From a virus: a DNA stretch of 45,594 nt. The stretch covers positions 1 through 45,594 of the IMG/VR virus record IMGVR_UViG_3300043395_003010. One strand, 5' to 3'. Positions 6,716 through 45,469 of the stretch are shown here, piece by piece. A program made the translations under genes and the position numbers. The notes beneath the pieces are model-generated. The model saw only the letters and a list, made by a program, of their open reading frames with translations. It did no database searches and was not told the origin of the DNA. The first letter of the stretch is position 1. The number at the start of each line of letters is the position of its first letter.

Positions 6716-6747
6716 GGGCCAGGTTGCTTCGGCGGCCTGGCCCTTTT
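6716..6747 (+). terminator. Strong intrinsic terminator after capsid gene
   Basis: GGGCCAGG (6716-6723) pairs with CCTGGCCC (6736-6743). The inner TTGC/GCGG pairs close a TTCG tetraloop, and TTTT follows. It stops transcription of the head operon before the endonuclease-methyltransferase gene, which has its own promoter-like sequence. Confidence 0.9.
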
Positions 6748-6793
6748 GCTATTTGTCCAACCTGCCAGTCGTAAAGCATGTGTAAACAGTTGC

Positions 6794-6823
6794 TTGACTG
6801 AGGCAGGTCGGGTCGTTTACGAT
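6794..6823 (+). promoter_or_regulatory. Sigma70-like promoter for the endonuclease-methyltransferase gene
   Basis: TTGACT (6794-6799), an 18-base spacer and TACGAT (6818-6823) form a reasonable housekeeping-sigma promoter just after the capsid terminator. The expected start of transcription falls at or beside the A of ATG 6830, and there is no Shine-Dalgarno sequence, so the message may be leaderless. The prediction rests on consensus matching only. Confidence 0.5.
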
Positions 6824-6829
6824 TGCTCT

Positions 6830-8749
6830 ATGAGTAAGTCGTTGGACGGTTTGACAGAGGCAGAGCTGCGCCGCCTCTATGTGGACGAGGGGTTGACCGA
6901 GACGGAGATCGCAGATCGGTTCGGCACCTATCAGGTGAAGATCAACAGGCTTCGCCAAAAGTACGGGATCGCATCGATCAGCAAGTCAGACCGTCTGGAC
7001 TTACCCCTCTCCCTTGCCCCACGACTGCATTCGATCCTCATGGGGTCAATGTTGGGGGACGGGGGGCTTCGCCGCACGGGCTCGGAAACCGCGAGCTATC
7101 ACGAGCACCATTCCGAGAAGCAGCGGCCTTATCTGGACTGGAAGGTTGCGGAGTGGGGTACCTTCTTCTTGAGCACCATCCCGGCGGATAAGAAGGGGCA
7201 CCGGGGGTTTCGCATGATGACCCACGGGTGCCGGGTGCTCTTCCCCTTTTGGCAGACGTTTTACCCGAGTGGGAAGGGAGAGAAGGTCTTTTTAGGACTC
7301 GACCCGGACGCCGTCGATGACCTTGCCCTTGCTGTTTGGTTCATGGACGACGGGTCCAGGACGGAGAGCTACGTTCGTTTCTCTGTGAGTCCTGTTGAGG
7401 CCAACCAGCGGGTGCTCTTGCGAGTCCTCAAGCGACATAAGCTGGACGCCCAGGTATACGGCGACCGTGACGATGTTTCGATCCACGTACAGGGGCGAAC
7501 CAGCCTCACTCGATTCATTGACAAGGTGGCCCCCCATCTTGTCCCGTCGATGGCCTACAAGCTAGACCTTCCGACAGCTAGGAAGGCTGGGCCTGCGCCT
7601 CGTCACGTCCTTACGGTCGAAGCGATGCAGCCTCTCAGGGATCGGGGCCTTTCCGCGGAACAGATCGGACAGGTCTTCGGGGTATCCCGACAAAGTGTCC
7701 TTCGTGCGCTCGATCGGGCTGGGATCGCGAAGCCTTCTCCCGGACGCCCAAAGGCGTCCGAACGAACCGAGTTCACCGTCGAAGAAGCGACAGAAGCTAC
7801 CCTCAAACTCACCCCTGGGAGCACCCTTGTGGATGAAGTCCTCGCCATCTTGGTGAAGACGGCCATCCCTATTCAGGCACCTTCCGAGGTTGAAGTCGAA
7901 GCGGACATTGATCGTCTTCGGTCTGCACCCACGGAGGTACTTGGGTCCACGATTGCTCATACGAGCACGGCTGGCGCCTTGACCTGTGCTCGTTTCTTTC
8001 CCCATCGCTGGGATGCGCGATACCGGGACAACCTGTCCCCCAGGATGGGGTGGTACGACCGTGAGGTTCTTCGCAAGGCTATCTGCTTCCAGTTGCGCGT
8101 GGGCGATCCGGTTACTCCCGTTCGAGTGTTTCGCGCTGTTCAAGTCGTGGTGCGCGCCCCCACCAACTTTCGGCCTGCCTTCGCCAAGGCGCTCATTGAA
8201 CACTTCTGCCCGAAGGGAGGCGTTGTCCTAGATCCATGTGCTGGGTACGGGGGTCGCGCTGCGGGGGCTATGGCGTCCGATCGCAAGTACATAGGTGTCG
8301 ACCCACACCCGGACGCAAGTAGAGCCTTCACAGCGCTCGCCACCGCCTTCAAGTCCGGCCTTGTATTCCACAATGCCCCGTTCGAGGAGGTGGACCTAGG
8401 GGACCTTCAAGCGGATCTCGTCTTCACGAGCCCTCCGTACTTCTCCGTCGAGCGCTACTCCAATGAGCCCACGCAGAGCTGGGTTAGGTACAAGACGTGG
8501 GATTCATGGATTCAAGGCTTCCTCACCCCCTTCGTCCAGAAGTCGTTTGCCTATTTGCGCACGGGCGGCGTGTTTTGCGTGAACACAAAGGACGTACGGG
8601 TACGGAACAAGGTTATGCCCATCGGGGGGGAAGTCGTGCGGCTCGCATTGAAGGCAGGCTTCACGCATGAAGCCACGATGACGCTGCCCCTTGGTCGCAT
8701 CGGAAAGGTCGTGCAGTCCGAGCCCATCTTCGTCTTTCGGAAGGTGTAA
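6830..8749 (+). CDS. LAGLIDADG homing endonuclease fused to DNA methyltransferase
   Basis: 639 residues from ATG 6830; an upstream non-ATG extension to 6746 runs into the terminator and is rejected. Residues 1-45 form a helix-turn-helix (GLTETEIADRFGTYQVKINR). Residues about 65-245 are a LAGLIDADG endonuclease with LHSILMGSMLGDGG and LALAVWFMDDGS. A second helix-turn-helix follows (GLSAEQIGQVFGVSRQSVLR). The C-terminal half is an amino-methyltransferase: SAM-binding DPCAGYGGRAAG near residue 468 and catalytic SPPY near residue 534, the motif order of N6-adenine or N4-cytosine enzymes. No intein splice motifs flank the endonuclease. It could be a homing gene carrying a modification domain, or a methyltransferase invaded by an endonuclease. 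The domain calls are firm and the biology is unknown. Confidence 0.85.
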   Translation: MSKSLDGLTEAELRRLYVDEGLTETEIADRFGTYQVKINRLRQKYGIASISKSDRLDLPLSLAPRLHSILMGSMLGDGGLRRTGSETASYHEHHSEKQRPYLDWKVAEWGTFFLSTIPADKKGHRGFRMMTHGCRVLFPFWQTFYPSGKGEKVFLGLDPDAVDDLALAVWFMDDGSRTESYVRFSVSPVEANQRVLLRVLKRHKLDAQVYGDRDDVSIHVQGRTSLTRFIDKVAPHLVPSMAYKLDLPTARKAGPAPRHVLTVEAMQPLRDRGLSAEQIGQVFGVSRQSVLRALDRAGIAKPSPGRPKASERTEFTVEEATEATLKLTPGSTLVDEVLAILVKTAIPIQAPSEVEVEADIDRLRSAPTEVLGSTIAHTSTAGALTCARFFPHRWDARYRDNLSPRMGWYDREVLRKAICFQLRVGDPVTPVRVFRAVQVVVRAPTNFRPAFAKALIEHFCPKGGVVLDPCAGYGGRAAGAMASDRKYIGVDPHPDASRAFTALATAFKSGLVFHNAPFEEVDLGDLQADLVFTSPPYFSVERYSNEPTQSWVRYKTWDSWIQGFLTPFVQKSFAYLRTGGVFCVNTKDVRVRNKVMPIGGEVVRLALKAGFTHEATMTLPLGRIGKVVQSEPIFVFRKV

Positions 8750-9264: not shown

Positions 9265-9552
9265 TTACGAATTCGCGTCCGGGGTAGGTTCAGGAGCCGG
9301 GGTAGGTTCAGGAGCCGGGGTAGGTTCAGGAGCCGGGGTAGGTTCAGGAGCCGGGGGGATGGGAGCTGCGGGGTCGGTCCCTAGGCTCTTCAGACGTGCT
9401 GAGATAGCGGCTAGGCTCGCGAGGGTCTCGGGGGATGGTGCTGAACCGTCCGCGAGAGCTGCTTGGAGGTCTGCTGAAAGCTTGTCGAGGCGTGCGGCTA
9501 CTGCATTGGTCTCAGCGTCGAGTGCAGCAACGAGGTCTTCCAATTGGCCCAT
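9265..9552 (-). CDS. Coiled-coil protein with PEPTPA repeats
   Basis: Start chosen at the ATG at 9552 (reading MGQLEDLVAALD) because AGGAGA lies five bases upstream on the - strand. An in-frame ATG pair at 9651-9646 would add a charged N-terminus (RNRRIEAKVDRILILQEKS) and is a real alternative. The 95-residue protein has a heptad-like helix (LVAALDAETNAVAARLDKLSADLQAAL), a second helix, then a Pro-rich tail of repeated PEPTPA units ending DANS. Many phages encode small proteins of this shape, but their function is not known to me. A bidirectional terminator just beyond its stop supports the strand. Confidence 0.65.
   Translation of the reverse strand: MGQLEDLVAALDAETNAVAARLDKLSADLQAALADGSAPSPETLASLAAISARLKSLGTDPAAPIPPAPEPTPAPEPTPAPEPTPAPEPTPDANS
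9281..9352. repeat. Four 18-bp tandem repeats (PEPTPA units on - strand)
   Basis: Four exact copies of an 18-base unit lie inside the - strand coiled-coil gene and encode the hexapeptide repeat of its proline-rich tail. The unit length equals that of the repeats in the Gln-rich gene and in the gene at 28257. Confidence 0.95.
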
Positions 9553-10591: not shown

Positions 10592-10797
10592 GTCTTTGCC
10601 CAAGAAGCCTTGATACCTTCGGGGATCTAGGGAGGGCAACGGAAGAAGCTGCGTCTTGAAGACACCGTAAAAAACGGTCGGTACCGCCCGGCTGGGGCGG
10701 GGCATCATGACTTCTGAGGGGAGTTTCCTCCCCGTTGATGAAGTTGGGCCAAAGCTAACGAAGACCTCTATCTAAGAGGTCTTTTATGGGTAAAGCC
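10592..10797 (-). ncRNA. Structured inverted-repeat element, copy C
   Basis: The element is bounded by GTCTTTGCCCAAGAAGCC (10592-10609) and the inverted GTCTTTTATGGGTAAAGCC (10779-10797). Read on the - strand, its interior matches copy B at 40.2 kb over about 100 bases, including AACTTCATCAACG, CAGAAGTC and CCCCGCCCCAGCCG followed by GACCGTTTTTTAC. Inside, GGGGAG/CTCCCC with a TTTC loop (10718-10733) is enclosed by ACTTC/GAAGT. In copy B the inner stem has a different, still complementary, sequence. A 9-bp hairpin followed by TTTT (10761-10785, + strand) may also terminate + transcripts. The transcribed strand is uncertain. Confidence 0.65.
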
Positions 10798-13321: not shown

Positions 13322-13377
13322 TACCCAGAGACCCCATCGAAAGTTTTCTCGTGGAGGCCAAGGGTATGCCTACGGTC

Positions 13378-13447
13378 GGCTTTGCCCAAAAAGTCTTTCC
13401 TTCACAGCCCCATGAAAGTCCCCTCAATGGACTTTCATGGGCAAAGC
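13378..13447. repeat. Inverted-repeat hairpin element, copy A
   Basis: GGCTTTGCCCAAAAAGTC (13378-13395) and inverted GGACTTTCATGGGCAAAGC (13429-13447) pair over GCTTTGCCCA/TGGGCAAAGC. A nested, partly competing hairpin, CCCATGAAAGTCC/GGACTTTCATGGG (13409-13441), has a perfect 13-bp stem, extended by CACAGC/GCTGTG. The left arm is identical over 19 bases to that of copy B at 40224. It lies between divergent genes, where it could act on both promoters. No T-run follows. Confidence 0.7.
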
Positions 13448-13463
13448 TGTGTAGTGTTAGCTT

Positions 13464-14030
13464 ATGACCTCGATACAATGCTTTTTACTTGAACCTACGG
13501 CTCGCCTTCAACGAAGCCTACGTCGATATTGTAGCGGTAAAGAGAGGCGCCTATGCCAGAAAACATCCAACTATCACAACGCAAGCACGCCCTTTGATGT
13601 GGTGTCCGTTGTGTTGGATGAAGACGGGACGTACCGTGGTGATGCCCCGGACTCGGAAAAGCCTGCGAGGGATGACTCAAGGTGGCCTCGCAAATGCGAC
13701 ATGTGTCCTTATCTATTTGAGGACGGCGATGAATGGCAAGTCTTCCAAGAACTTCTCTACGTGTGCAAGGTCACCGGTGAAGAGATGACCCTACGAAAGG
13801 CAAGAATTGGAGCTATGTGGGATGCCTCTTGGTACCTTGAAAAGGGACCTGACGGGTTGAGCTTGGTCGTGCGCCTTCCAGACGGCCACGACTGGCACGT
13901 AGACGGTCCTGCATCGAATGGTGGGGGCTGGACAAGAACTGGAGATGCCCCACGAATCACCGTGCGTCCCAGTATCCTGACTCCAAAGTACCACGGATGG
14001 TTAACAGACGGTCAACTTGTTGAGTGTTGA
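13464..14030 (+). CDS. Unknown phage protein (DUF6527-like pattern)
   Basis: 188 residues from ATG 13464. It contains LEPTARLQRSLRRY, NYHNAST, a cysteine pair CDMC, DEWQVFQELLYV, GAMWDASWYLEKGPDGLSLVVRLPDGHDWHVDGPASNGGG in two continuous blocks, and YHGWLTDGQLVEC at the end. This order matches phage proteins I recall from many environmental and actinobacterial phages, which are uncharacterised. Their conserved Trp, His and Asp positions hint at a compact fold, possibly metal-binding, but no reaction is known. The ATG choice is supported because the first residues also match that pattern. It converges with the next gene with a four-base gap. Confidence 0.65.
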   Translation: MTSIQCFLLEPTARLQRSLRRYCSGKERRLCQKTSNYHNASTPFDVVSVVLDEDGTYRGDAPDSEKPARDDSRWPRKCDMCPYLFEDGDEWQVFQELLYVCKVTGEEMTLRKARIGAMWDASWYLEKGPDGLSLVVRLPDGHDWHVDGPASNGGGWTRTGDAPRITVRPSILTPKYHGWLTDGQLVEC

Positions 14031-16661: not shown

Positions 16662-16907
16662 ATGCCTAGAAGAGTACCGGGTGAGAAGGAGGGGAAAGAC
16701 GATATAATGTCCTTTAATGGAGCTGTCGTAGAAGCCCTTCGAGGCTCAATGTTTCGAGTAAAGTGCGATAACGGCTTAGATGTCCTTGCCACTATTAGTG
16801 GGAGGATGCGGAAGAACTATATACGTATCCTTCCTGGAGACAAGGTGACTGTAGAGGTAAGTGCCTATGACCCTTCGAGGGGACGCATCACGTACCGTAG
16901 CAAATGA
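16662..16907 (+). CDS. infA: Translation initiation factor IF-1
   Basis: 81 residues that match bacterial IF-1 along the whole length: [40 protein letters not shown], then [21 protein letters not shown] and RITYRSK. This is a single OB fold that binds the ribosomal A site and aids start-codon selection. ATG 16662 is preferred over ATG 16707 because the usual IF-1 N-terminal K-D-D-I stretch is encoded before the second ATG. A few other large phages carry translation factors, so this is probably a way to redirect or sustain host ribosomes. It is followed after a seven-base gap by a lysine-rich protein. Confidence 0.92.
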
Positions 16908-17455: not shown

Positions 17456-17496
17456 GGCATTGGGGGGCCCTTCGGTGTAGAAGGCTCTCCAATGCC
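17456..17496 (+). promoter_or_regulatory. Long leader hairpin enclosing helicase start codon (H3)
   Basis: The bases from GGCATT to AATGCC form an almost continuous 17-bp stem (one bulged base, two G-T pairs) closed by CTTC/GAAG around the loop GGTGTA. The helicase ATG (17492-17494) is base-paired inside the stem, so translation should depend on unfolding. This is the third hairpin with this loop sequence. Confidence 0.65.
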
Positions 17497-20371
17497 AACG
17501 CTTGATGAAATCTACGCGAAGCTCAAAGCCGCCCGGGCATCGAAGACCATCGCCCTGAAGCCCTCTCCGATGCTTCGAGGGCAGATCAAGGCTCCAGACG
17601 GCTCAATGCAGCCGTTCCGGCTCCGCTACTACCAAGTTCAGGGTATCTACCACATGCTCTGGATGGATCGGATGGTCCTTGGGGATGCCTGTGGTATTGG
17701 CAAAACGATCGAAGCTCTTTCGACCCTCTGCTACCTATGGGACGGGAAGGCGCCCAGCCTACGAGCCATCGTGGTCGCGCCAAAGTCGGCTCTTCGTCAG
17801 TGGGATGGGGAACTAGATCGATTTGCGACAGGTGTTCGCACCTTCGTTGTACGCGGCAAGTTCGAAGAGCGCAAAGCCATCTATAAGGAATGGGCGTCCT
17901 CCCCTACCGGCGTGGGGAAGGGCAACGTTCTCATCATTAACTACGCCATTCTCGTCCGAGACTGGGACGCAGAGGGATTTCAACCTCTCCTCCCGAATGG
18001 GCACCCAGATCCAAAGAAACCCGTGACCCCAGGTGTCTTGGACGCCGCCACGCAGGACGCAGCAAACAGGGGAGGGCTAGTAACATATTTCGACGAGTGT
18101 TTTGATTACCACACCCCTATTCAGTTGGCAGGCGGTGGGAAAGAACTGATCGGACGCATCGCCACGAAGAGGCTTCCGGTCGAAGTGCTTTCGTGGAATT
18201 GGGAGTCGCAGCAGGTAGAGTCCAAACGCGTGGTCAACTGGTACCGCAACCCGCTCCGTCGCGGGCGTCGCGAAGCGATGCTGAAAGTACAGTCCAGGCT
18301 CTCAGGCGTTGTGAATGTCACGAAGAGCCACTATTTCTATCGGACTGATGGGAGCAAGATACGGGCAGGGGATCTGTCGGTAGGTGACTCAATCGCAACC
18401 TTGGTGACTAACGCCCCATCTCTTATACAGGAACAGATTGTTCTAGGCGGACTGCTTGGGGATGCCAGCGTATCGCATCCAACTAGGGATCTGTGGGATA
18501 TCTGCTTTTCACAGTCTACTAAGCAAGAAGACTACCTCCGTTTCAAGTGCAGAATCCTTGCTCCGCTTGGAGTATCTGAAGTGTCCTTCTACCAGACGGA
18601 ACTCCAATCCGGCACTCAGCAGATGTGTCGCTTCAGGGTGAACGGGAACGCCTTCCTGACTTCACATCTGCGCGCCAACCAATTCATAAGGGATTTCGGT
18701 AAGGCCATCACTCCAGACTTCCTAGATAGGCTGGGGCCTCTAGCACTGGCTGTTTGGTATGGAGATGACGGTTCCCTTTCCGAGTACGTTCGGAGGGATG
18801 GATCCGTATCGCGGCGTATTGTCCTGAACACGCAGGGATTCAAACGCGCAGAGGTCGAACTTCTGGCTGGGTACCTTCGTTGGAAGTGGGGTGTCGTAGC
18901 TCGTGTGAGGAAGGTTACCAATAAGAAGCGTCAATCCAGCTACCACACCCTCTATCTAAACAACCAGGCAGCTAACCGGTTTCTCACATTGCTCCCAGGT
19001 GCTCTCCCTGGTGTGGAATATAAGTTTCCCGGTATGACCCCTGTCGATTTCTCGCCCGATAGCACGACGCTGAGACAAACCATTGTGCGGGATGAGATCA
19101 CCTCAATAGAACCTTGGATGCCGGCTGAGAAGCCACGACTTCAAAACCACTATGTCTACGACCTTGAGGTAGAGGACAACCACAACTACTTCGCAAACGG
19201 TGTCTTAGTTTCCAACTGCACGGCCTTTAAGAACCCCTCGACCAAGACTTGGCAGACGTGCCGCTTCCTATCGGATCGATCGGCCCGATGTTACGGCCTG
19301 ACGGCAACTCTACTCAAGAACAACCTTCTCGAAGGGTTTGCGATCTACAACGTGATTCGGCCCGGGGTCTTCACGACGAAAACCAAGTTTATGAACGACT
19401 TCTGCGTCACGCAGCTACAGCCTATACCAGGCGGTCGTAAGGTTCTCGTCCCTGTAGGTTACAAGAACCTCGATGGGTTCCGGCAGAGGATTGATCCATT
19501 CTTCCTGGGCCGCGCGAAGCACGAGGTTTCAGACGAGTTGCCGAAGCTCATCACGAAAGTTGTATCTTTCGAGATGAATACGGCTGAGGAGGCCAAATAC
19601 CGGGAGGCCCTTGAAGGGATCTTGGAACTCGGAGACGGGGAAACGAAAGAGTACCAAGAGTCCATCGCCTTTACCTCTCTCATCTACTGCCAGCAGATCG
19701 TGGATTCCCTTCACCTTCTCAAGTTTGAGGAAGGTCATGAGATCGATGTGGGCACCTTTGGTGATGAAAACATCGTCAAGGTGAAAGACCGGGGCTCGAA
19801 AGAGCAAGCCCTCGCGGACCTTCTCACCGAAGAACTCGATGAGGAGAAGGTGATCGTATACACCAGATTTGAGAAGCTTGTCGGTAGACTCCAGGCGATT
19901 CTCAAAGCTGAGGGCATCAAGAGCGTTCGGATCACGGGCAAGGAGAAAGCAGATCAGCGTCGAGAGGCTCAGGAACGCTTCCAGGACCACAAGTCTGACG
20001 TAAAGGTTGTGATTGTCACGGATGCCGCGAAGGAGGCCATCAACCTTCAGGCAGCGTCGGCGGAGGTCTTCTACGACAGCCCGTGGTCATGGGGTGACTA
20101 CGTTCAGCTCTTAGGGCGTCCCATCCGAATCGGGTCTATTCATGATACGGTCGTGGCCTATCACCTCGTGGCAGAGCGCCCGTGGAGCAAATGCGCGGAC
20201 CGCCGGACCATTGATCACGCTGTCCTGTCCCTGCTCGATGAGAAGAAGCACCTGGTCGACAAGGTGCTTGGGGAGTCTACGGTGGGAGCGCTTGATTTCG
20301 GGGGAGGCACGGGCAGCGCCACACGTGACTTATTGCGCCTCATGAAAGAGAGGATCAAGAATGCCCCGTGA
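17492..20371 (+). CDS. SNF2-type DEAD/DEAH helicase with intein
   Basis: 959 residues, 586 after splicing. Motif I (GDACGIGKTIEAL) lies near residue 64, motif Ia as IVVAPKSALRQWDGEL, and motif II as YFDE followed after splicing by CTAFKNPSTKT (family DEAHxLKNxxS). Motif III is LTATLLKNNL, and motifs V/VI are KVVIVTDAAKEAINLQ and YVQLLGRPIRIGS. This arrangement is that of small phage SNF2/helicase proteins used in replication, recombination or repair. A 373-residue intein sits directly after the Asp-Glu of motif II, so the precursor cannot hydrolyse ATP until spliced. It heads the replication gene cluster, and the next small gene starts inside its last codons. Confidence 0.88.
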   Translation: MPTLDEIYAKLKAARASKTIALKPSPMLRGQIKAPDGSMQPFRLRYYQVQGIYHMLWMDRMVLGDACGIGKTIEALSTLCYLWDGKAPSLRAIVVAPKSALRQWDGELDRFATGVRTFVVRGKFEERKAIYKEWASSPTGVGKGNVLIINYAILVRDWDAEGFQPLLPNGHPDPKKPVTPGVLDAATQDAANRGGLVTYFDECFDYHTPIQLAGGGKELIGRIATKRLPVEVLSWNWESQQVESKRVVNWYRNPLRRGRREAMLKVQSRLSGVVNVTKSHYFYRTDGSKIRAGDLSVGDSIATLVTNAPSLIQEQIVLGGLLGDASVSHPTRDLWDICFSQSTKQEDYLRFKCRILAPLGVSEVSFYQTELQSGTQQMCRFRVNGNAFLTSHLRANQFIRDFGKAITPDFLDRLGPLALAVWYGDDGSLSEYVRRDGSVSRRIVLNTQGFKRAEVELLAGYLRWKWGVVARVRKVTNKKRQSSYHTLYLNNQAANRFLTLLPGALPGVEYKFPGMTPVDFSPDSTTLRQTIVRDEITSIEPWMPAEKPRLQNHYVYDLEVEDNHNYFANGVLVSNCTAFKNPSTKTWQTCRFLSDRSARCYGLTATLLKNNLLEGFAIYNVIRPGVFTTKTKFMNDFCVTQLQPIPGGRKVLVPVGYKNLDGFRQRIDPFFLGRAKHEVSDELPKLITKVVSFEMNTAEEAKYREALEGILELGDGETKEYQESIAFTSLIYCQQIVDSLHLLKFEEGHEIDVGTFGDENIVKVKDRGSKEQALADLLTEELDEEKVIVYTRFEKLVGRLQAILKAEGIKSVRITGKEKADQRREAQERFQDHKSDVKVVIVTDAAKEAINLQAASAEVFYDSPWSWGDYVQLLGRPIRIGSIHDTVVAYHLVAERPWSKCADRRTIDHAVLSLLDEKKHLVDKVLGESTVGALDFGGGTGSATRDLLRLMKERIKNAP
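18098..19216 (+). mobile_element. Intein with LAGLIDADG endonuclease in SNF2-type helicase
   Basis: Residues 203-575: Cys1 in CFDYHTPIQLAGGGKELIGR (block A), block B-like VNVTKSHYFY, and C-terminal YDLEVEDNHNYFANGVLVSN followed by Cys+1. Endonuclease helices are VLGGLLGDASV and LALAVWYGDDGS. The splicing residues look complete. It splits Walker B between DE and the extein Cys. Confidence 0.9.
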
Positions 20372-20486: not shown

Positions 20487-21439
20487 CCGCCAGTGACACA
20501 ACCTCCGTCTGTTCGCTATGTGGCGGAACAGGTACCGTCGATGCTGACGACATGGGGGGCACTGAGTGTAGGTGTCTTCTCGCTAAGAGATTGATACGTC
20601 ACCTTGGTCCGGAGATAGCGGGCGTCCCGTTCCCCAGAGAAAACTGGCAGAGCTTCCTCTTCACCCCTAAGGGCGAGGACTACACGATCCGTAACGTCGT
20701 ATTTAAGGCGTACTGGCGCGATCTGCTTCCGCATCTCAAGTGGGCCCTTGGGTGCAAGGGCCCCATGTTCCGTTTCAAGATACTCACGGACGAAAAGCTA
20801 CGGACTGTCTACGTGGGGGCAGAGAGTTATACATCTAGGCCACGTTCCAAACGGGATGATATGGCGACTAACAACTCCCTGAACGACATCCTAGGGGAGG
20901 AGATCGATCTCGTCATTATCCGCCTAGGCTTCCTGGGGTATAAGAACGTTGCGATGCCAGGGATCCTAAAAGAGTCGCTTATGCTCCGCGAGATCTCTCG
21001 CAAGCCTACTTGGATCGTGGAGTCCCCTGATGCGCCTCTTGTCCCAGGCCACTTCGCATACAGCGAAGACGTGTTCGAATACATCCTACAGCGCTTTACG
21101 AGCGTGAAGATATCTGAGTACGACGAGACTCGTGACGAAGGCATAAGCCCACAGAAGTACCCCCAAACGTCGCCACCTAAGTCTGTCGAGGACGTAGATA
21201 TGTCCACCCCCGTGCACGAGGAAGAAGTGCCCGCAGAGGCTCTCGGGGAACCGCCCAAGAGAGAAACGGGTTTAGAGCGAACTCTTCGAGAGAGGCGGGT
21301 AGTGAAGGTCGTGCCTAAGTCCAATATCCACACGGATTTAGACCTCTCGTCGGTAGACGACACCACACTTGAGGGCATGGGTTTACCCTCGTTTAGCGGT
21401 GGCGGGGGGTATGGCAAGCGGAAAGGGAAATCCAAGTGA
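20483..21439 (+). CDS. Helicase loader-like protein with zinc finger (probable)
   Basis: 318 residues. The N-terminus has a CSLCGGTGTV...CRCL zinc finger as in DnaJ-type and loader proteins. The central part reads like the Walker B and sensor I region of DnaC/DnaI-like AAA loaders: EEIDLVIIRLGFLGYKN, then LREISRKPTWIVESPDAP, though I see no Walker A loop. The C-terminus is a flexible acidic then Lys/Gly tail. It lies between two helicase genes and overlaps the DnaB-type helicase start (GTGA), which is the usual place for a loader. If it is one, ATP binding may have been lost. The alternative is an unrelated zinc protein. Confidence 0.55.
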   Translation: MTASDTTSVCSLCGGTGTVDADDMGGTECRCLLAKRLIRHLGPEIAGVPFPRENWQSFLFTPKGEDYTIRNVVFKAYWRDLLPHLKWALGCKGPMFRFKILTDEKLRTVYVGAESYTSRPRSKRDDMATNNSLNDILGEEIDLVIIRLGFLGYKNVAMPGILKESLMLREISRKPTWIVESPDAPLVPGHFAYSEDVFEYILQRFTSVKISEYDETRDEGISPQKYPQTSPPKSVEDVDMSTPVHEEEVPAEALGEPPKRETGLERTLRERRVVKVVPKSNIHTDLDLSSVDDTTLEGMGLPSFSGGGGYGKRKGKSK

Positions 21440-24222
21440 AGCCGATCCTACGCTCTGTCATCGACTTCGACGGGAAGATCTCGCAGGATAACCTGATCCT
21501 GAACCTCCAGCGTCTAGTCTCCTCTAAGTACGAGTGGACGAGACCCGATGACCAAAGGGTCTACAACTTTACCCTCTCATTTTTCCAGCAGCGCATGGAG
21601 GTTCCCTCCGCGCAAACATTGAAGGACTACTTCGAGCGCACAAAGGATATCGAGGCGGTCGAGCGGGTCAAAGACTTAGAAAACGTCTCCTCCTACATCC
21701 GAACGAACTTCGATGAGCTACTCAAGAACGCTCTCGAAGAGCAGCATCGCATCAAGGCCGTGGCACTCCTCAAGGAGTCTCAGGAGATCATCACCAAGGG
21801 CCTAGAGATCGAGGGTGAGCGCAAGCATGGGGTCCGGGAGGGCCTCCAGCACTTCGCGTCTCGTGCAAATGACCTCATCACGAGTGAGTACAACGCTCGT
21901 ACGCGGGGAGACATCCGTGACGATGGTCAGGATGTTTGGAACGACTACGAGCAGGCTAAGGTCAATAAGGACAAGGTCTGGGGCAAGTTCACGGGCCTTA
22001 ACAACATCGACAAGTGTTGCCACGGCGCTAAGAAGGGTGAACTTTGGGTCCACGCCGCCTTCCCTGGAGAGCTGAAGACCTCTTTGGCGATGAACTGGTG
22101 CTACAACCTCGTCACCAGGTACAAGACGAACGTATTCTACGTCAGCTTGGAGATGCCGTACGCGCAGCTACGCCGCATCGCGTATGTGATCCACTCGGCC
22201 AGCGCAAAGTGGCCCCTCGCCGGTTACGACAAGCCCCTCGACTACAGGAAGGTTCGAGATGGAATGCTCGACCCGAAGGAGGAGGCTTTCTACAAGGATG
22301 TCGTTGCCGACTTCCACCGGAACCCGGACTACTGCTCATTCGAGGTCTGGAGCCCTGACCGTGAAGTGAACATAGATGACATCCGCCTGGAGGCGGAGTT
22401 GCTCCATAAGCGTATGGAGGTCGGGCTGATCGTGCTGGACCACGGGATGCTCATCGAAGCCCGGAAGAAGAAGCGCTCCAAGGACTACGTAGTCGAATTG
22501 AACTCGGTCATCCGGGATTCAAAGAAGCTCGCCCTGCACTTTAACCAAGGCGAAGGGATTCCGGTTTTGATGCTTTTCCAGATTAACCGTCAGGGGAAGA
22601 ACGAGGCGGATAAGAACGAGGGTCGCTACAAAATGAGCGCCCTGACGTACGCAAATGAGTGTTGCGCTGAAGGGACTCTGGTCAAGACCTTGCGCGGCCT
22701 ACGTCCCATCGAGGATGTGAAGCCTGGGGATCGCGTTTGGAGCCATACGGGTTGGAAGGATGTGCTTGCACGCTACGACAATGGTGTTCGAGAGGTCTAC
22801 GACCTCTGGACTAACAGGGGCCTTCGCATCCAAGTCACGGGCAACCATCGTGTTCGGGTGCTCAATGATGGCCGCGTCGAGTGGAAGCGCGTCGATGCCC
22901 TAACGCTGTCTGACCACCTGCTGTGTGACTTTGGGGCGCGTCCTTTTCCGACTACTGTGTCAGATCTGCCCCCTCTCGTGTTTGAGAAGCACGAGAAGCC
23001 GACTGGAAGGTACAAGACCCCCCTAACCGTGCCTGAGCGGATCACCCCCGATCTGGCCTATGTATTTGGGGCGCATATCGGAGATGGCACGTTTGAGCCC
23101 GGTATGGTGGGGTTCACGGGGAACTGTCGAGAATCGGCCGTGTTGGGTCGCCTAACCGCTGCCTTCACGAGCTGCTTCTCCCAAACGATTACGGTGTCGA
23201 AGGCCCCTTCTCGTCCCGGTAGCTTCGACATGCGGAAGTACAGCAAAGCGCTTCACAGGTGGTTCGATCAACTGCGCGTCAACCGGCAACCCGGGCTACC
23301 CCCATGCATTTTGGAAGCGCCTCGCGACTGTGTGAAGACGTTTCTTCGTGGCCTATGGGACACGGATGGTTCGATCAACAACCAGGGGATTCTAGCTATC
23401 GGTCTCAAAGGAACTCATGAGGCAACGCTTCGACAGACACAATTGTTGATGTCGGATCTCGGTATCGACACGACGCTTTCGTTTGGTCTTACGAAGCTGA
23501 GGGGTCAGGAGTTTGATCGTTGGGTCTTGCGCGTGCGATCACGTGAGGGGCGCACGCGCTTTGCCCGCCTGATCGGATTTACTGAACCCAAGAAGCAGGC
23601 CAAGCTCATGAGCTTTGTGGACTGCCACGCCACCTCTTGCAAAGCGGGAGACCGGACGGATTGGCCCGTAGGGTCTCTGTTTCGGTCGATCTTCGAGAGG
23701 TACGCGGGGCACGACTTCCCAAGAAAAGTTAGGAACGCTATCCATAAGCTGGCACGGCCAACGACGCTCGTGTCCGATGGAGCTGTCGCCGCACTGCTGA
23801 GGACGCTTCGGAACGAGCGGTCCGAGGAGCTTGACCTTCTACGCAGCCTCTTCACCTCTACCAAGCCCCAGCGCGTGGCTGTACTAGCTCGCTGGGGTAG
23901 CAGCCGCGTGTTTGACCTTGAGGTCACAGGCGATCATGAATACGCAACAGCGGGTTTTCTCTCGCACAACTGTGAAAAGTCAGCGGACATCATTACGACG
24001 ACGTACTTGAACGAGGAGCACCGTAGGCTCGGTACGACGCTCCTGTGCAACCTTAAGAACCGCGACAACCCGATCTTTGAGCCCTTCCAGGCTGAGGTCA
24101 ACTTCTCGTCGCGCCGGATCAGGAACCGCAACGAACTGAATACCATGGGGGGCCACGGTATGAGCACTGAAGAGCATCATGGCGTTTTCGATGCAATGGC
24201 AGGCATAATGAGTGGCGTGTGA
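21436..24222 (+). CDS. Replicative DnaB-type helicase with intein
   Basis: 928 residues from GTG 21436, 491 after splicing. RecA-fold helicase motifs: GELWVHAAFPGELKTSLAMN (motif H1, an unusual Walker A in which the usual Gly-Lys-Thr is Leu-Lys-Thr), NVFYVSLEMPYAQLRRIAYV (H1a), VGLIVLDHGMLIEA (H2) and IPVLMLFQINRQGKNEA (H3). After splicing it has YANECEKSADIITTTYL (H4 equivalent). An N-terminal helical domain precedes it. This is the ring helicase that unwinds DNA at the phage fork. Neighbours (loader-like, CHC2 protein, DNA polymerase) agree. The intein of 437 residues lies between H3 and the H4 core. Confidence 0.9.
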   Translation: MKPILRSVIDFDGKISQDNLILNLQRLVSSKYEWTRPDDQRVYNFTLSFFQQRMEVPSAQTLKDYFERTKDIEAVERVKDLENVSSYIRTNFDELLKNALEEQHRIKAVALLKESQEIITKGLEIEGERKHGVREGLQHFASRANDLITSEYNARTRGDIRDDGQDVWNDYEQAKVNKDKVWGKFTGLNNIDKCCHGAKKGELWVHAAFPGELKTSLAMNWCYNLVTRYKTNVFYVSLEMPYAQLRRIAYVIHSASAKWPLAGYDKPLDYRKVRDGMLDPKEEAFYKDVVADFHRNPDYCSFEVWSPDREVNIDDIRLEAELLHKRMEVGLIVLDHGMLIEARKKKRSKDYVVELNSVIRDSKKLALHFNQGEGIPVLMLFQINRQGKNEADKNEGRYKMSALTYANECCAEGTLVKTLRGLRPIEDVKPGDRVWSHTGWKDVLARYDNGVREVYDLWTNRGLRIQVTGNHRVRVLNDGRVEWKRVDALTLSDHLLCDFGARPFPTTVSDLPPLVFEKHEKPTGRYKTPLTVPERITPDLAYVFGAHIGDGTFEPGMVGFTGNCRESAVLGRLTAAFTSCFSQTITVSKAPSRPGSFDMRKYSKALHRWFDQLRVNRQPGLPPCILEAPRDCVKTFLRGLWDTDGSINNQGILAIGLKGTHEATLRQTQLLMSDLGIDTTLSFGLTKLRGQEFDRWVLRVRSREGRTRFARLIGFTEPKKQAKLMSFVDCHATSCKAGDRTDWPVGSLFRSIFERYAGHDFPRKVRNAIHKLARPTTLVSDGAVAALLRTLRNERSEELDLLRSLFTSTKPQRVAVLARWGSSRVFDLEVTGDHEYATAGFLSHNCEKSADIITTTYLNEEHRRLGTTLLCNLKNRDNPIFEPFQAEVNFSSRRIRNRNELNTMGGHGMSTEEHHGVFDAMAGIMSGV
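22660..23970 (+). mobile_element. Intein with LAGLIDADG endonuclease in DnaB-type helicase
   Basis: Residues 409-845: Cys1 in CCAEGTLVKTLRGLRPIED, block B VTGNHRVRVL, and C-terminal FDLEVTGDHEYATAGFLSHN followed by Cys+1. Endonuclease helices are VFGAHIGDGTFE and FLRGLWDTDGSI. The N-extein ends YANE and the C-extein begins CEKSAD. Splicing residues all appear present. Confidence 0.92.
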
Positions 24223-28264: not shown

Positions 28265-28970
28265 TCGGCGCGATCTGTACGGAGAATGCAATCTCGATGG
28301 GGCGCCTCTTGATGCGTTCGTGGAGGGGTGCTGCAAGAAGTGCATGAACCCCGACTGTTCTCGTAGCCGGTGGGGCACAAGTCGTTTTGAGCGGCGTGTC
28401 ACTTCATGGGAGGACCGTCTCTTCCTGAAGGTCCCTCGTATGGCCCCTGGAGACCCGCGGTACCCGGCACTCACCGCCCAAGGGTTCATGACGATTGATG
28501 TATCAGCCGTGCCTACAGTCGGTGCAGGATGGGACGACCCAAGGGACCTGGCCGTCGCAGCTCCGGCGCCTACCCCTCCGCCCCCTCCTGTAGAAGCCGC
28601 TCCCGTACCGCCTGGGCGGCCTCCTGGCTTCCCCATGCAGCGAAATGAGTCGGAGGCTGCTCCTACGCCGGAGGCTGCTCCTACGCCGGAGGCTGCTCCT
28701 ACGCCGGAGGTAGGGGTCACGAAACCGCAAGTGGTGAATGCTCTGCCTGTTGAGGTGGCCTCTCCCAGCCCGTCACCCCCGGCAGGGGCGGCGCCCATGG
28801 TGAACACCCCGTTCCAAGGAGGTCGTATGTTGCAGGGGGCTCCCACATCTTCTTCCCAGGGAGGGCAGGGGGATCGCTGGAGTGTCCCTTCACCCCAGGT
28901 CCAAAGCCCCGTCCCGAGCGGGATTAAGGTGGTTCCGCGGGGGGCAAAAATTCGTCTAGGGGGGGAGTAA
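28257..28970 (+). CDS. Cysteine-rich, proline-rich phage protein
   Basis: 237 residues from ATG 28257, overlapping the polymerase stop; longer frames lie inside the polymerase gene. The N-terminal 70 residues hold YGECNLDG, then CCKKCMNPDCSRSRWG, then RRVTSWEDRLFLKVPRM and DPRYPALTAQGF. This is a Cys-rich zinc-like motif followed by a conserved helical stretch that I recall from other phage hypothetical proteins. The rest is Pro/Ala/Ser-rich and probably disordered, with three EAAPTP units. It may bind DNA or polymerase, given its position after the polymerase gene. Function not known. Confidence 0.6.
   Translation: MDNRRDLYGECNLDGAPLDAFVEGCCKKCMNPDCSRSRWGTSRFERRVTSWEDRLFLKVPRMAPGDPRYPALTAQGFMTIDVSAVPTVGAGWDDPRDLAVAAPAPTPPPPPVEAAPVPPGRPPGFPMQRNESEAAPTPEAAPTPEAAPTPEVGVTKPQVVNALPVEVASPSPSPPAGAAPMVNTPFQGGRMLQGAPTSSSQGGQGDRWSVPSPQVQSPVPSGIKVVPRGAKIRLGGE
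28653..28706 (+). repeat. Three 18-bp tandem repeats (EAAPTP units)
   Basis: Three identical in-frame copies of an 18-base unit encode EAAPTP in the disordered part of the protein at 28257-28970. Confidence 0.9.
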
Positions 28971-36084: not shown

Positions 36085-37818
36085 ATGTTTTTCATTATGG
36101 CCGCGGATAGACCCTTAGGTGGGACGGATGCTGATTTGCCTCGTTACGAGGCCCTCCTCGATTCGCTTAACGAGCTGGACTTGCGTCCGCCGTCCACGAG
36201 CGACGCCTATTGGGAGCGTATCCGTGACCGTTTACTGTCGTACTCGGTCAGTCAGGAACTCCCTAAGGCCATCAAAGAGTGGGCTCGAAAGGGAATGCCT
36301 ACGGAAGAGCCGGGATCGCACTGTGAACTTTGCGACAAGTTTCCGATTACGTGGAAGTTCCCCATCTATAATAAGGCCCGCCGCAAGACCATCAACATCG
36401 GGTCAGAGTGCATTGTCAATTTTACGCACATCCGGTTCCAGTCAGATCTCGACACGATTAAGGTTCTGACCCTAGGTGAGATCAAGAACATCCGCCGTAG
36501 GCGCGAGAAGAAAAAGACTCGGACCCGAGAAGAGAACGAGTCCGATGACCTGCTCGACCTAGAGCGAGCGATCAAAGACTTCGTACGCATTGCCGGGACG
36601 GGAGAGGACTTTCCCATCCTGAAGCACATGTATGCGATGAACGACATCCTCAGGGTTTTGAAGCTCCTTGGAGTGAAGTCCCCGGCGGTGGTATCGGGCG
36701 ACAAGGCCCTCATGGCTTGCGTATCGATCAAGCACCTAGCGACACCTCTCGGGATAACCGGCAACCAGGATCTCGGTATCGTGGAGCTAGCCCGAGAGAT
36801 CATCCACAGGAGGAACTTGCGGAGCCGGAAACAGCTCCTCCAGTCACTTCGGGATCACCTGATCACTGTCTTCAAGCCTGTCCCGAACGAGGCCCTCATC
36901 CGCCTTTACGACGAGTTCGATGACAAGCGTCGCACCATGGTTTCAGACGTCCGCGCGAAGAAGGTAGCCTTCGACGAGAAGATGCGGGCCAAGTATCAGG
37001 ACTTTTCGAAATTCGTAGATCGATACGAGCACCTCCAGTTCACACTCGAAGCGGGCCTCACGGCGGCCCGCAAAGAGACCGAGGCTCGGGTCCAGAAATA
37101 CGAAGCCCTTGTCATGGATAAGGGCCTCATAGCCCGTCTAACGCCGATGAGTGGGGCCGCAGTCCCACAGATGTTCGATACATCTGCGTTGTTTCCGGAG
37201 GTGGAGCTTCGCCGCTTTCCTTCGGCTCTGACGAAAGCCGCGGCCAGCTTGGCGGACTTCCTTTATGCAGTCCGCCATGGAGATGACAAGCGGGTGGTGA
37301 GTGCTCTAGCCGATAAGTTCAACCGTCCCATTCAGGACGTAGCGGGTGTGCAAGCCGCTCTACTGCAAGCAGCAGACGATAACATCGTTCTGCCTGAATC
37401 CCGTGGAACGAAGACGATCGACGACTTCATCGAACTTATGGAACTACAGTCCCCGGCCGTCGTGCGTCTTCTCATCAAAGAGGTCGATGACCTTTCAAAT
37501 GTCCGCTTTGGGGAGGCTCTCCTGTTTGACAGGATGCAGAAAGAGCTAGGCTTCGACGTGGAGGATACGTTCCGGTACTTTGATGCCTATAACGACGCGG
37601 ACGCAAAGGCGTGCCGGAAGCTTGTGTCGAACTTCCAGGTAGGCAGGAAGCCGGGACCTGACGAGTTGAGGATCTTCCTTGATCGGCGCACGTCGAAGCC
37701 GGCCAAGCCAAAGCTAAGTATGCTCGACCAGATCCGAGCGGAGATTGGATCTGATATCGGGTGGGTCATCAAGCAGGCGCGCAGGATGGCGCTCGCAGCT
37801 CTCTGGAGGGTCGCATGA
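36085..37818 (+). CDS. Large unknown protein with GSECIxNF zinc-like motif
   Basis: 577 residues, ATG 36085 (ATG 36097 also possible). Near residue 80 it has HCELCDKFPITWKFPIYN followed by TINIGSECIVNFTHI, a two-part motif (CxLC ... G-S-x-C-I-x-N-F) that recurs in many phage and bacterial hypothetical proteins and looks like a treble-clef zinc site. After this a Lys/Arg-rich helix (KNIRRRREKKKTRTREEN), then a long helical region. It may bind nucleic acid. The next gene overlaps its stop. Confidence 0.6.
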   Translation: MFFIMAADRPLGGTDADLPRYEALLDSLNELDLRPPSTSDAYWERIRDRLLSYSVSQELPKAIKEWARKGMPTEEPGSHCELCDKFPITWKFPIYNKARRKTINIGSECIVNFTHIRFQSDLDTIKVLTLGEIKNIRRRREKKKTRTREENESDDLLDLERAIKDFVRIAGTGEDFPILKHMYAMNDILRVLKLLGVKSPAVVSGDKALMACVSIKHLATPLGITGNQDLGIVELAREIIHRRNLRSRKQLLQSLRDHLITVFKPVPNEALIRLYDEFDDKRRTMVSDVRAKKVAFDEKMRAKYQDFSKFVDRYEHLQFTLEAGLTAARKETEARVQKYEALVMDKGLIARLTPMSGAAVPQMFDTSALFPEVELRRFPSALTKAAASLADFLYAVRHGDDKRVVSALADKFNRPIQDVAGVQAALLQAADDNIVLPESRGTKTIDDFIELMELQSPAVVRLLIKEVDDLSNVRFGEALLFDRMQKELGFDVEDTFRYFDAYNDADAKACRKLVSNFQVGRKPGPDELRIFLDRRTSKPAKPKLSMLDQIRAEIGSDIGWVIKQARRMALAALWRVA

Positions 37819-38711
37819 TCCCTTATGGGATAGTGTACCTGCTCACAAACACGGTGAGTAAAAAGGTTTACGTGGGGCAGACCACCAAGTCCTTGATGGC
37901 TAGGTGGGGGCAGCATGTGAGAGCAGCCAAGACCCACTCTCCAGCCCCCGTGCATAGGGCTATCAGGAAGCACCAAGCCGTGGCGTTCAAGGTAGAAATA
38001 CTGGAGCAGTGCCCAGATCAAAACATCCTGAACCAAGCCGAGGCTAGATGGATCGCCTTCTATCAAAGCGATCGATTGATCAGCGGGTATAACTGCACCA
38101 GCGGCGGGGATGTGGCGTACACTTTCACCACCGACGCCAAGAAACGAATCTCCGTTACACAGCGACGACGCCTCGCCGATCCGTGTGTCCGGCAGGCCAT
38201 GTCGGACCTCAGTCGCGCGCAGTGGCAGGACCCGTCCTTCCGTAAACTAAAGTCAGAGCAGGCATCGACCCAGTGGGCGACCCCCTCCATGCGCAGGATC
38301 CTGTCGGATAAACAGCGGGCTTATTTCGCAGCACACCCAGAAGCCAAAAATACCCTTAGCAATTACAACAAGTCCCCGGCTGGGCGAGAGGCCAAGTCCA
38401 AGTCACGCAAAGCCTTCTTTAAGGCAAACCCACAGGTTTGCGACACGTTCCGAGAGGTTCAGTTGGCACGTCAGCGTAAGCTCCACGGAGCGTCTAAGCC
38501 AGACCTTGTACTTGCTGCTATCGAAGCGGGGGCTGTCACATTAGACATCTCCATGGCTACAGGGCTACCCGTTCGCAGCGTGCGAGAAGTTCTCGGGCGC
38601 TATCAACGGAGAGGGTTGATCCGGTCTCGGGCACTGTTTCCCAATGAGCGGCCTGAAATTGAAGGAAACGCCAGGAATAGAACCCGCGTCTGGTTCAAGG
38701 AGAGTGAGTGA
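37815..38711 (+). CDS. GIY-YIG homing endonuclease
   Basis: 298 residues from ATG 37815. The N-terminus YGIVYLLTNTVSKKVYVGQT carries the GIY...YVG catalytic motif, and later residues KSLMARWGQH and EARWIAFYQS supply the Arg/Glu found in the family. The remainder is a series of basic repeats (SQxx..RRRLADP, SVTQRRR, AKSKSRKAFFKANP) typical of NUMOD-type DNA-binding modules, with a helix-turn-helix at AGAVTLDISMATGLPVRSV. It overlaps both neighbours (ATGA and TGATG), so it was fitted neatly between them. It would cut intron- or gene-free alleles at a specific site. Confidence 0.85.
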   Translation: MIPYGIVYLLTNTVSKKVYVGQTTKSLMARWGQHVRAAKTHSPAPVHRAIRKHQAVAFKVEILEQCPDQNILNQAEARWIAFYQSDRLISGYNCTSGGDVAYTFTTDAKKRISVTQRRRLADPCVRQAMSDLSRAQWQDPSFRKLKSEQASTQWATPSMRRILSDKQRAYFAAHPEAKNTLSNYNKSPAGREAKSKSRKAFFKANPQVCDTFREVQLARQRKLHGASKPDLVLAAIEAGAVTLDISMATGLPVRSVREVLGRYQRRGLIRSRALFPNERPEIEGNARNRTRVWFKESE

Positions 38712-39505: not shown

Positions 39506-39571
39506 AGCCCCGTTTCGTTGTACGCGGCTTTGCACAAGTGACCCAGGTCCCCTACGAATGATCGAGGCTGA

Positions 39572-39613
39572 GGCTGCCCAAGAAGTCGTCAGATGGCCTT
39601 CTTGGGCAAAGCC
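39572..39613. repeat. Inverted-repeat hairpin, copy D
   Basis: GCCCAAGAAG (39576-39585) and CTTCTTGGGC (39598-39607) form a 10-bp stem, with GGC and GCC around it. It lies between convergent genes and shares the TTGGGCAAAGCC arm with the other copies. It may also work as a transcription stop in both directions, though no T-run follows. Confidence 0.65.
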
Positions 39614-40223: not shown

Positions 40224-40595
40224 CGGCTTTGCCCAAAAAGTCATTTGTGAAGACTTTCGAGGCTTCGGCCAGACTTCATCAACGTCTTAGATCTCTCAAC
40301 GAGATCTATTCCTCAGAAGTCGTGATACCCCGCCCCAGCCGAGCGGTACTGACCGTTTTTTACTGTTCTTTCAGAGTCCAGCTTCTCCCGCTTTGACTCC
40401 TAGACCCCTCAAAGGGGATCAACGATCTCATGTTGACGCTTCTCAGATTTTACCCCACAGAAGACTTCCCGTGGGAACCAGATACCTTCTCAAATCAACG
40501 ATCGTCCCCGGAGGAAATACGTCAAACCTCCAGGTAACCCACCCCTCTAAAGGGACACACGGGGGATGCCAAGAAAGACTTTTTGGGCTTTGTCC
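40224..40595 (+). ncRNA. Structured inverted-repeat element, copy B
   Basis: The left arm CGGCTTTGCCCAAAAAGTC (40224-40242) equals that of copy A; the right arm GACTTTTTGGGC (40577-40588) is its exact 12-base inverse. The first half corresponds base by base to copy C (opposite strand): GGCTTCGGCC, ACTTCATCAACG, then hairpin AGATCTC/GAGATCT (40289-40307) within GACTTC/GAAGTC (40272-40321), then ACCCCGCCCCAGCCG and GACCGTTTTTTAC. Copy C has GGGGAG/CTCCCC at the same hairpin. More hairpins follow, such as CCCCT/AGGGG and GGAGG/CCTCC. No coding frame of note. Candidate non-coding RNA. Confidence 0.65.
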
Positions 40596-40650
40596 GGTAA
40601 GTCCCGGTTGTCCGCCAAATGGCGGAGCTGCCTGAAAGATGCTCTGAGCG

Positions 40651-40693
40651 GGCTTTGCCCAAAGAGTGTGCCAAAGGATTTATCAGGCAAAGC
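40651..40693. repeat. Inverted-repeat hairpin, copy E
   Basis: GCTTTGCC (40652-40659) pairs with GGCAAAGC (40686-40693) in the gap between copy B and the gene at 40726. GGCTTTGCCCAAAGAGTG continues the family arm. Between copies B and E there is another small stem, CCGCC/GGCGG (40612-40625). Confidence 0.55.
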
Positions 40694-40725
40694 GTCTCTT
40701 TTGGTGTAGCTTTCACGGACGGGCA

Positions 40726-43722: not shown

Positions 43723-44616
43723 TCAACGCTTCAGCCAAGTCCCGCCCTCCCGATTGTACCACTGAAGTGCCCAACCGTCGGAGTAAGCGCCCCCGGGCTT
43801 CTTGAACCGTTTGCGAGATTCACTCAGCGCTTTTTCCCAGAGCGCTGGATCAGAGGGTATGCTGGCGCCTGTCCCGACTTTTTGCGTTGCATACCGGAGG
43901 AGAACCTTCTCGACAATTGATAAGCGTTTCGGTCGAAGAGGATCCTGTTGGCTTACTACTTTTGCACGCGCCTTCGGAGGTGTCAGGGTTTGCGGGCCCC
44001 CCTCCACGTCATGACCGCGTAACATCGCAATCCGAATGAACCCCTCGAAGGTGGCCTTCTTGAGGTTGGCGGCGGCCTGTCCCTTGTTTCCGAGAGACAG
44101 GGGAGCTGTCATCACGATACGCTCATCGGCATTGTCACCGCCCCAAAGAACAATCTCGTGCGCCCCCCAGGTGACCACGGGGAAATGTTTGTCCACGGCA
44201 TTATCCGTGTGCACCGTGGGATCGTTGGCGTAAGCCAACGTGACATGCGGGCAGAACTCCTTAAACCTCTTTGAATACGGGATACCCGCCTTGTCGAAGG
44301 CTGCCCGCAGTCGCATGTGGAGGTCCTGGACTTCGTTGGAGTCGATACGGCAAATGACGGGTACGGTCTTGTGTTCCGGATGCGGGGGGAAGGTCGTGAC
44401 GTGGGAGGTTTGGACCGTGAATGGTCTGGTCGCGGACGCCACCTCGACCAGAGGCTCCAGTGCGGCGGCCACGTTTTCGAGGGGCATCTCCTCGCCCAAG
44501 TTCAGAAGCGTGATGTGGTAGGCACTTACGGGTTCAGGGTCCCCGAAGTCTCCGTAGTCGATCGTAGACAGCAAACGCGCCGTCTCGGGAGGTACACGAA
44601 GTCCTACAAACGCCAT
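43723..44616 (-). CDS. 2H phosphoesterase (LigT-like) with DUF5872-like C-terminus
   Basis: 297 residues from the ATG at 44616; the frame extends further upstream but over another gene. The first 190 residues have the two HxT motifs of 2H phosphoesterases, SAYHITLLNLG near residue 40 and FCPHVTLAYANDP near residue 120, with YxT/L spacing of LigT-type enzymes. The C-terminus, SDPALWEKALSESRKRFKKP followed by SDGWALQWYNREGG, matches a short domain common in phages and giant viruses. 2H enzymes cut 2'-5' or cyclic phosphodiesters, and phage relatives can break cyclic-nucleotide defence signals. An anti-defence role is possible, not shown. Confidence 0.78.
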   Translation of the reverse strand: MAFVGLRVPPETARLLSTIDYGDFGDPEPVSAYHITLLNLGEEMPLENVAAALEPLVEVASATRPFTVQTSHVTTFPPHPEHKTVPVICRIDSNEVQDLHMRLRAAFDKAGIPYSKRFKEFCPHVTLAYANDPTVHTDNAVDKHFPVVTWGAHEIVLWGGDNADERIVMTAPLSLGNKGQAAANLKKATFEGFIRIAMLRGHDVEGGPQTLTPPKARAKVVSQQDPLRPKRLSIVEKVLLRYATQKVGTGASIPSDPALWEKALSESRKRFKKPGGAYSDGWALQWYNREGGTWLKR

Positions 44617-44677
44617 GAGTGCTGATCGCTCCTGTCTACAAGGATCCTCTAAAGAAACTTCATGGACGAGAGGCCCT

Positions 44678-45469
44678 ATGGCGAGAGATGTGGTACTGTC
44701 GGCGTTTGCCTGTTCTACGATGGCTCCCTGCGGAAAGTGGGCGAAGGAGCTATTCCGGGAGGAGCCCTTAGTTCTCACCGTTCCCGGCTCGGGCGGCGAT
44801 TTCATTAAGAGGGGGCGTGAATGGGCGGCCACGGGGGATGCTTTTCGGGCTGCGCTGAAAGAACTGGCTCCCCAACACAAGAACATCGAGATCCACAGGC
44901 GAGCGCTCGTCACCTTCAGTGCCGGGTGGCAGCTAGGGGATGAGATTCTCAAATCGAAGGCTGATCGCGAAGCCCTGGATAGCTATTTAGTGGAGGATGG
45001 CATCCACACGAAGGGCCTCGATCATTGGATTAAGTTCGCGATGCGGGCGGGCCGATCAGAGGCCCTCATGGTCATGGCTCACACGCAGATCGTGCCCCCG
45101 TTCATCTCGACAAAGGAGACCAATACCACCGTCTTCAATGAAGCCGTGGCGCGTCTCGGGGCCAACGCCAACCCCTACGGTGTTGAGCCAGAGTGCATGA
45201 CGAAGCCTAAGTTTCCAGCAGAGGGAGTCTCAATTCGGAGCGGCAACCCCCCTACAACAAGGAAGTGGACTGCGGACCCCCTTGTTGCCTCCGAGTGGAA
45301 GGGAGATCTCTTCCGTTTCGAGTACGAAGGGAAAGACGGTCCTTCACATATGTATATTGCATGGCATGTAGCGCCGCGCCTATGGCAGATGCTTGCGACG
45401 CGGTGGAACGTCATCGCGATTCCGACGATTGAGATCACGGGCGGTGATAAGCCCGTGGGCGAGGCGTGA
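44678..45469 (+). CDS. Alpha/beta-hydrolase-like protein
   Basis: 263 residues from ATG 44678 (GAGAGG upstream); GTG/ATG codons further up overlap the - gene. LVLTVPGSGGDFIKRG resembles an oxyanion strand-loop. RALVTFSAGWQLGDEIL has the nucleophile Ser in F-S-A-G-W, SYLVEDGIHTKGLDHW supplies an Asp/His position, and ALMVMAHTQIVPPFISTKET the His. The same arrangement occurs in predicted hydrolases I recall from environmental bacteria and phages. Substrate unknown; it may act as an esterase on the cell envelope or be virion-associated. Confidence 0.6.
   Translation: MARDVVLSAFACSTMAPCGKWAKELFREEPLVLTVPGSGGDFIKRGREWAATGDAFRAALKELAPQHKNIEIHRRALVTFSAGWQLGDEILKSKADREALDSYLVEDGIHTKGLDHWIKFAMRAGRSEALMVMAHTQIVPPFISTKETNTTVFNEAVARLGANANPYGVEPECMTKPKFPAEGVSIRSGNPPTTRKWTADPLVASEWKGDLFRFEYEGKDGPSHMYIAWHVAPRLWQMLATRWNVIAIPTIEITGGDKPVGEA

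Follow-up and report, generated by a model that had tools for sequence, protein, structure and literature searches.

Gene Content of the Window

We analysed a 45,594-bp IMG/VR record (the window), which is one fragment of a larger phage genome. Its genes include those for a family A DNA polymerase, a DnaB helicase, ThyX, the translation initiation factor IF-1 and an endolysin, together with several inteins and homing endonucleases. The major head protein is 99% identical to that of a 67.9-kb contig (G001), 93% to that of a 529-kb record (G002), 83% to that of a 485-kb uncultured phage and 38% to that of Bacillus phage G. Because of these matches, the window is assigned by protein similarity to a huge phage. 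G001 is its nearest relative, and the two are syntenic with a nucleotide identity of about 64–82%.

Inteins or LAGLIDADG insertions are located at 898–3657, 6746–8749, 17492–20371 and 21436–24222, which is unusually many for 45 kb; their hosts are a prohead-protease-like protein, a DNA methyltransferase, an SNF2 helicase and the DnaB helicase. A free-standing GIY-YIG endonuclease (37761–38711), which is absent in G001, lies just upstream of the cluster of elements C, D and E described below. IF-1 is encoded by the phage at 16662–16907 (Pfam eIF-1a, E 1.7e-24). The gene at 43723–44952 on the minus strand is a possible counter-defence gene; it encodes a LigT/2'-5' RNA ligase-like phosphoesterase that also weakly matches the anti-CBASS protein Acb1. 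Tandem repeats of 18 bp occur at 4404–4610, 9279–9368 and 28651–28710; the first is Gln-rich in its open frame, and its counterpart in G001 is repeated differently.

Arms and Extents of the Five Elements

An initial annotation had pointed to five places that carry an arm close to GGCTTTGCCCANAAG paired with its inverse. Such an arm was found at all five of them (5/5), and all five lie between genes. The elements are called A to E here, and their orientation is named by the GGCTTT-first arm.

10592..10797, minus strand: element A, 206 bp, long form; arms at 10592–10603 and 10786–10797; interior homologous to D
10640..10719, minus strand: core of A, 85% identical to 40311–40390; matches the covariance model by construction only
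13378..13448, plus strand: element B, short hairpin form with both arms
39526..39613, plus strand: element C, 88 bp; outer arms and an inner hairpin at 39575–39613
40225..40596, plus strand: element D, 372 bp, long form; about 150 nt extra ahead of the right arm
40262..40408, plus strand: core of D, with the interior repeat matches to A
40651..40696, plus strand: element E, weakest copy; left arm full, right arm partial
40225..40702, no strand: D and E together, taken as one insertion that G001 lacks; it is bordered by CTACAC and GGTGTA, which belong to the two divergent genes on either side

We compared the number of arms with that in shuffled sequences. Allowing at most one mismatch, GGCTTTGCCCA occurs at 8 sites in the window, whereas shuffled sequences average 0.8 (at most 5 in any of 200); all 8 lie in the places first described or in C as extended here. 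Inward-facing arm pairs within 450 bp number 3, compared with 0.005 in shuffles, and all are intergenic. In a weight-matrix scan of the window, the 8 element arms score 16.3–18.3 and the next site 11.8; only the gap between these scores is informative, because the matrix was built from the same 8 arms. A 19-base arm identity was confirmed; it holds between the second and fourth places (CGGCTTTGCCCAAAAAGTC, at 13377–13395 in B and 40224–40242 in D).

The extents first proposed stood in part. The five places are real, but C had been drawn too short: its outer left arm (GGCTTTGCACAAG) is at 39526, 46 bp beyond the start of 39572 given before, and its inner hairpin uses a shorter second arm. Terminal inverted repeats, a criterion for miniature inverted-repeat elements (MITEs), are clear across the dispersed copies A, B and C. 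At D and E the right arms are imperfect, and the left arm of E is full. In the right arm of D, only the inner 12 bp (GACTTTTTGGGC) match, and the outer part is GGGCTTTGTCC with a TTT/TTT mismatch; the right arm of E consists of GGCAAAGCG only. B, C and E have only the arms in common, with interiors unrelated to those of A and D, and no conserved coding sequence was found within the elements.

The elements had also been described as often adjoining strand changes. B and D/E lie between divergent genes, and C lies between convergent genes and ends just ahead of the stop codon of the next gene (39615). A begins directly after a stop codon (10591) and has co-directional neighbours.

A Core Common to Elements A and D

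A and D belong to one family in opposite orientation, a relationship that the initial annotation had missed. Positions 10640–10719 of A (minus strand) and 40311–40390 of D (plus strand) are 85% identical over 80 nt, and a second interior match reaches 87% over 23 nt. Overall, A and D are about 70% identical over about 200 nt, and D is longer by the extra stretch before its right arm. The central block runs for 77 nt without gaps and is conserved better than its flanks.

We compared the folding of the elements with that of shuffled sequences. A folds better on both strands (z = −4.9 for minus, −2.8 for plus), as does B (z = −6.9 for plus, −4.9 for minus), and D also folds better than its shuffles; E is barely beyond them (z = −1.7 and −0.6). 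The core of A and D is predicted to form hairpins. On an alignment of the two sequences fitted by hand, which leans towards the structure, the consensus fold is better than that of column shuffles on either strand (z = −2.5 and −3.5); hairpins at equal positions differ in sequence, and there are 8–9 double-sided changes. On an automatic alignment of the same two sequences, the consensus fold does not stand out from shuffles (z = −1.4 and −0.1). A conserved structure, modelled in this way on the hand-fitted alignment of just two homologues, is suggestive at best. The strand of a transcript was sought in G-U changes; one helix favoured the plus strand of D and other helices the opposite strand, and this attempt was dropped.

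Flanking Sequences and a Start-Proximal Motif

No target-site duplication was found at any copy; the longest flank repeats are 2–5 bp (p = 0.06–1.0). The right arm of B runs straight into GTGTAGTG, 7 nt ahead of the ATG at 13464, and the left arm of D likewise runs into GTGTAGTG, 7 nt ahead of a start codon. The starts preceded by this kind of motif are as follows.

8759, 10854, 10975, 15446, 17492 and 40726: starts preceded by GGTGTA
13464 and 40209 (minus strand): starts preceded by GTGTAG

GGTGTA occurs within 30 nt upstream in 6 of the 32 gene starts tested, compared with 0.2 expected, and G001 has it too, on both sides of its empty D+E site. GGTGTA is thus a more general start-proximal motif of the phage, and at D it belongs to the gene and not to the element, because it is present on both sides of the empty site. 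It may be a phage promoter whose leader is very short, or it may act in translation as a signal within small hairpins (CCCTCGGTGTAAGAGGG, CCTTCGGTGTAGAAGG).

Comparison with Related Phages

Whether relatives have empty sites was one of the checks first proposed, and G001 has them: A, C and D+E are all absent at its orthologous places. The space at A is 73 nt in G001 and 255 nt in the window. At C, the convergent genes of G001 abut or overlap and leave about no space, compared with 110 nt in the window. At D+E, where the flanks were compared with 58460–58540 of G001, the space is about 43 bp in G001 and 515 bp in the window, where an insert of about 478 bp replaces 5 bp of G001 between the CTACAC and GGTGTA motifs. 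To the base, GCTACACC-GCCAT-GGTGTATCC in G001 corresponds to CACTACAC-[478 bp]-GGTGTAGC in the window. In G002, where gene order is only partly kept, no such element was seen in the sequence examined, which covered the homologue of D's left-hand gene and the stretch between the homologues flanking C.

We looked for copies elsewhere. Viral contigs, phages, plasmids, species genomes and Rfam yielded no homologue of the elements. Exact and gapped patterns of the A/D core gave no match, or single matches without flanking similarity, in viral contigs and one species-genome scan. Arm patterns occur in viral contigs in about the chance number, and none has an inverted partner within 450 bp. A blastn search in phages and plasmids gave nothing of weight, and Rfam returned no family over the window or over A and D/E separately. 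The covariance-model search that had been suggested was carried out with a model of A and D instead of all five copies, and gave no match over 48 related viral records. The initial annotation had named a lack of further copies in related phages as part of what would refute the family. None turned up among the searchable records, but with one close relative among them this absence is not decisive. No comparable repeat family of its own was found in G001; among the tests used for this, the one with exact k-mers is too strict to recover even the family in the window.

The scanned window proteins include no transposase, and no autonomous element with the same ends was found in this fragment. A retron, an attC site, a group I intron, a CRISPR-repeat mimic and an IscB/TnpB guide RNA were considered and rejected, with no matching scanned protein gene and no Rfam match.

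Possible Origins of the Elements

The initial annotation had offered a mobile element, a terminator or processing site, and a phage RNA family. We tentatively favour the first, with a confidence that falls somewhat short of even: the elements may be non-coding, non-autonomous insertions of the MITE type that form a small family specific to this lineage, with a folded core in the long copies. The arms are far above the chance level and face inward, and the elements lack conserved coding sequence. The mutually inverted homology of A and D and the empty sites in the syntenic G001 are also consistent with insertion, and the phage is rich in other selfish elements, namely inteins and the GIY-YIG endonuclease that G001 does not have. 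Insertion would account for the arms, for copies that are scattered and face either way, and for the empty sites. It would leave unexplained the absence of duplications, the lack of a transposase in the fragment and the unrelated interiors of B, C and E. Against it also stand the failure to find a copy elsewhere and the divergence of A and D, which at about 30% is as large as that between the genes of the window and G001. Because of this divergence, a recent burst of copies seems disfavoured, and a loss of elements in G001, instead of a gain in the window, is possible.

The predicted folds keep a second explanation in play, which we consider possible but rather unlikely. A and D might be paralogous genes, about 200 and 370 nt long, of a phage-specific structured RNA family. 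The arms might then form the closing helix, B, C and E might be reduced hairpin forms, and the RNA might act as a decoy, scaffold or regulator. The folding of A, B and D (z = −2.8 to −6.9), the ungapped central block and the double-sided changes on the hand-fitted alignment agree with this, but the automatic alignment stays at the shuffle level, the helices conflict in strand, and the core is missing from B, C and E. A sigma-70-type promoter was not found at D, nor was there an Rfam match or an outside homologue. A further reading, unlikely in our estimate, would make A and D the first two known representatives of a new class of phage-encoded structured RNA, of which B, C and E would be minimal forms. 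Occurring on both strands of a single huge-phage genome, and possibly dispersed through the inverted repeats, such an RNA gene would be mobile while encoding no protein.

The arms could instead be operator-like, that is, inverted repeats bound by a phage protein which controls the adjacent promoters, with the interiors as filler; the extended start-associated sequences (ESAS) are comparable. B and D invite this idea: their arms are identical over 19 bp while the remainder differs, B and D/E lie between divergent genes, and the two arms lead directly into GTGTAGTG. But the left arm of A and both arms of C point into gene 3' ends, and the A/D core is not explained. The arms are also not needed for GGTGTA, because it occurs without them at other genes of the window and in G001. 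Such a role fits B and D only, and as an account of the family we regard it as decidedly improbable. Intrinsic terminators that arose independently, or hairpins that insulate the boundaries of transcription units, have very little in their favour beyond C, a strong hairpin between convergent genes. Terminators are unlikely because B, C and E are not followed by a T-tract and because the genes on either side of B, D and E diverge; near the elements, terminator-like matches are no more frequent than expected by chance, and a common arm sequence would not be expected among independent terminators. They fit C at most.

If the elements are MITE-like insertions, their conserved part would be the ends that they have in common, the inward-facing GGCTTTGCCCANAAG and its inverse, and a protein would probably recognise these. 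A transposase or recombinase supplied in trans, from elsewhere in the phage or from the host, may act on these ends and place copies in either orientation. The interiors would vary as they do where a family consists of derivatives with internal deletions or captured sequence, and only copies that landed between genes would have survived. This presumes a gain in the window rather than a loss in G001, and neighbouring genes may also be affected.

Nearest Described Systems

In the open-access papers searched, no described system matches on all defining features, and an earlier description is possible. Bacterial MITEs are alike in being short, non-coding, intergenic and multi-copy, with terminal inverted repeats, a variable interior and an empty site in a relative. 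Here, however, there are only five copies, without target-site duplication or a cognate transposase found, the interiors are mostly unrelated, and the host is a phage. The passage on MPMEs, the mycobacteriophage mobile elements (PMC3029335), presents very small phage-borne insertions with inverted repeats that are absent from close relatives, as here, and in it an ordinary target duplication is not described. MPME1 as given there is a single 439-bp sequence, identical between phages, whereas the window elements vary in length and interior and show no conserved open reading frame.

REP or GTAG palindromes are extragenic and imperfect, are thought to be mobilised in trans, and form clusters with several units in some cases (PMC3733652). 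The window elements are likewise extragenic imperfect palindromes, but they span 46–372 bp, compared with 20–40 bp for REPs, which carry a GTAG tag at one hairpin end (PMC3733652). This tag is absent at most arms in the window; CTAC/GTAG stands outside only some of them, and at several it is part of the start-proximal motif of the gene. ESAS of Cluster K mycobacteriophages are 17-bp imperfect inverted repeats with a variable spacer beside a start-proximal motif; they are confined to one phage group, and their function is not known (PMC3203893). The arrangement is similar here, but ESAS spacers are mostly 4–13 bp and lie before starts, whereas the window spacers measure 20–330 bp and neither A nor C is located at a start.

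Bacteria commonly carry tiny inverted-repeat elements. In the compact genomes of phages, descriptions of families of this kind are few, and the MPMEs are the example found. If confirmed, the family would mean that huge phages give some of their scarce intergenic space to passengers without proteins or to RNA genes. Because the empty sites are well defined, this idea is testable in related genomes.
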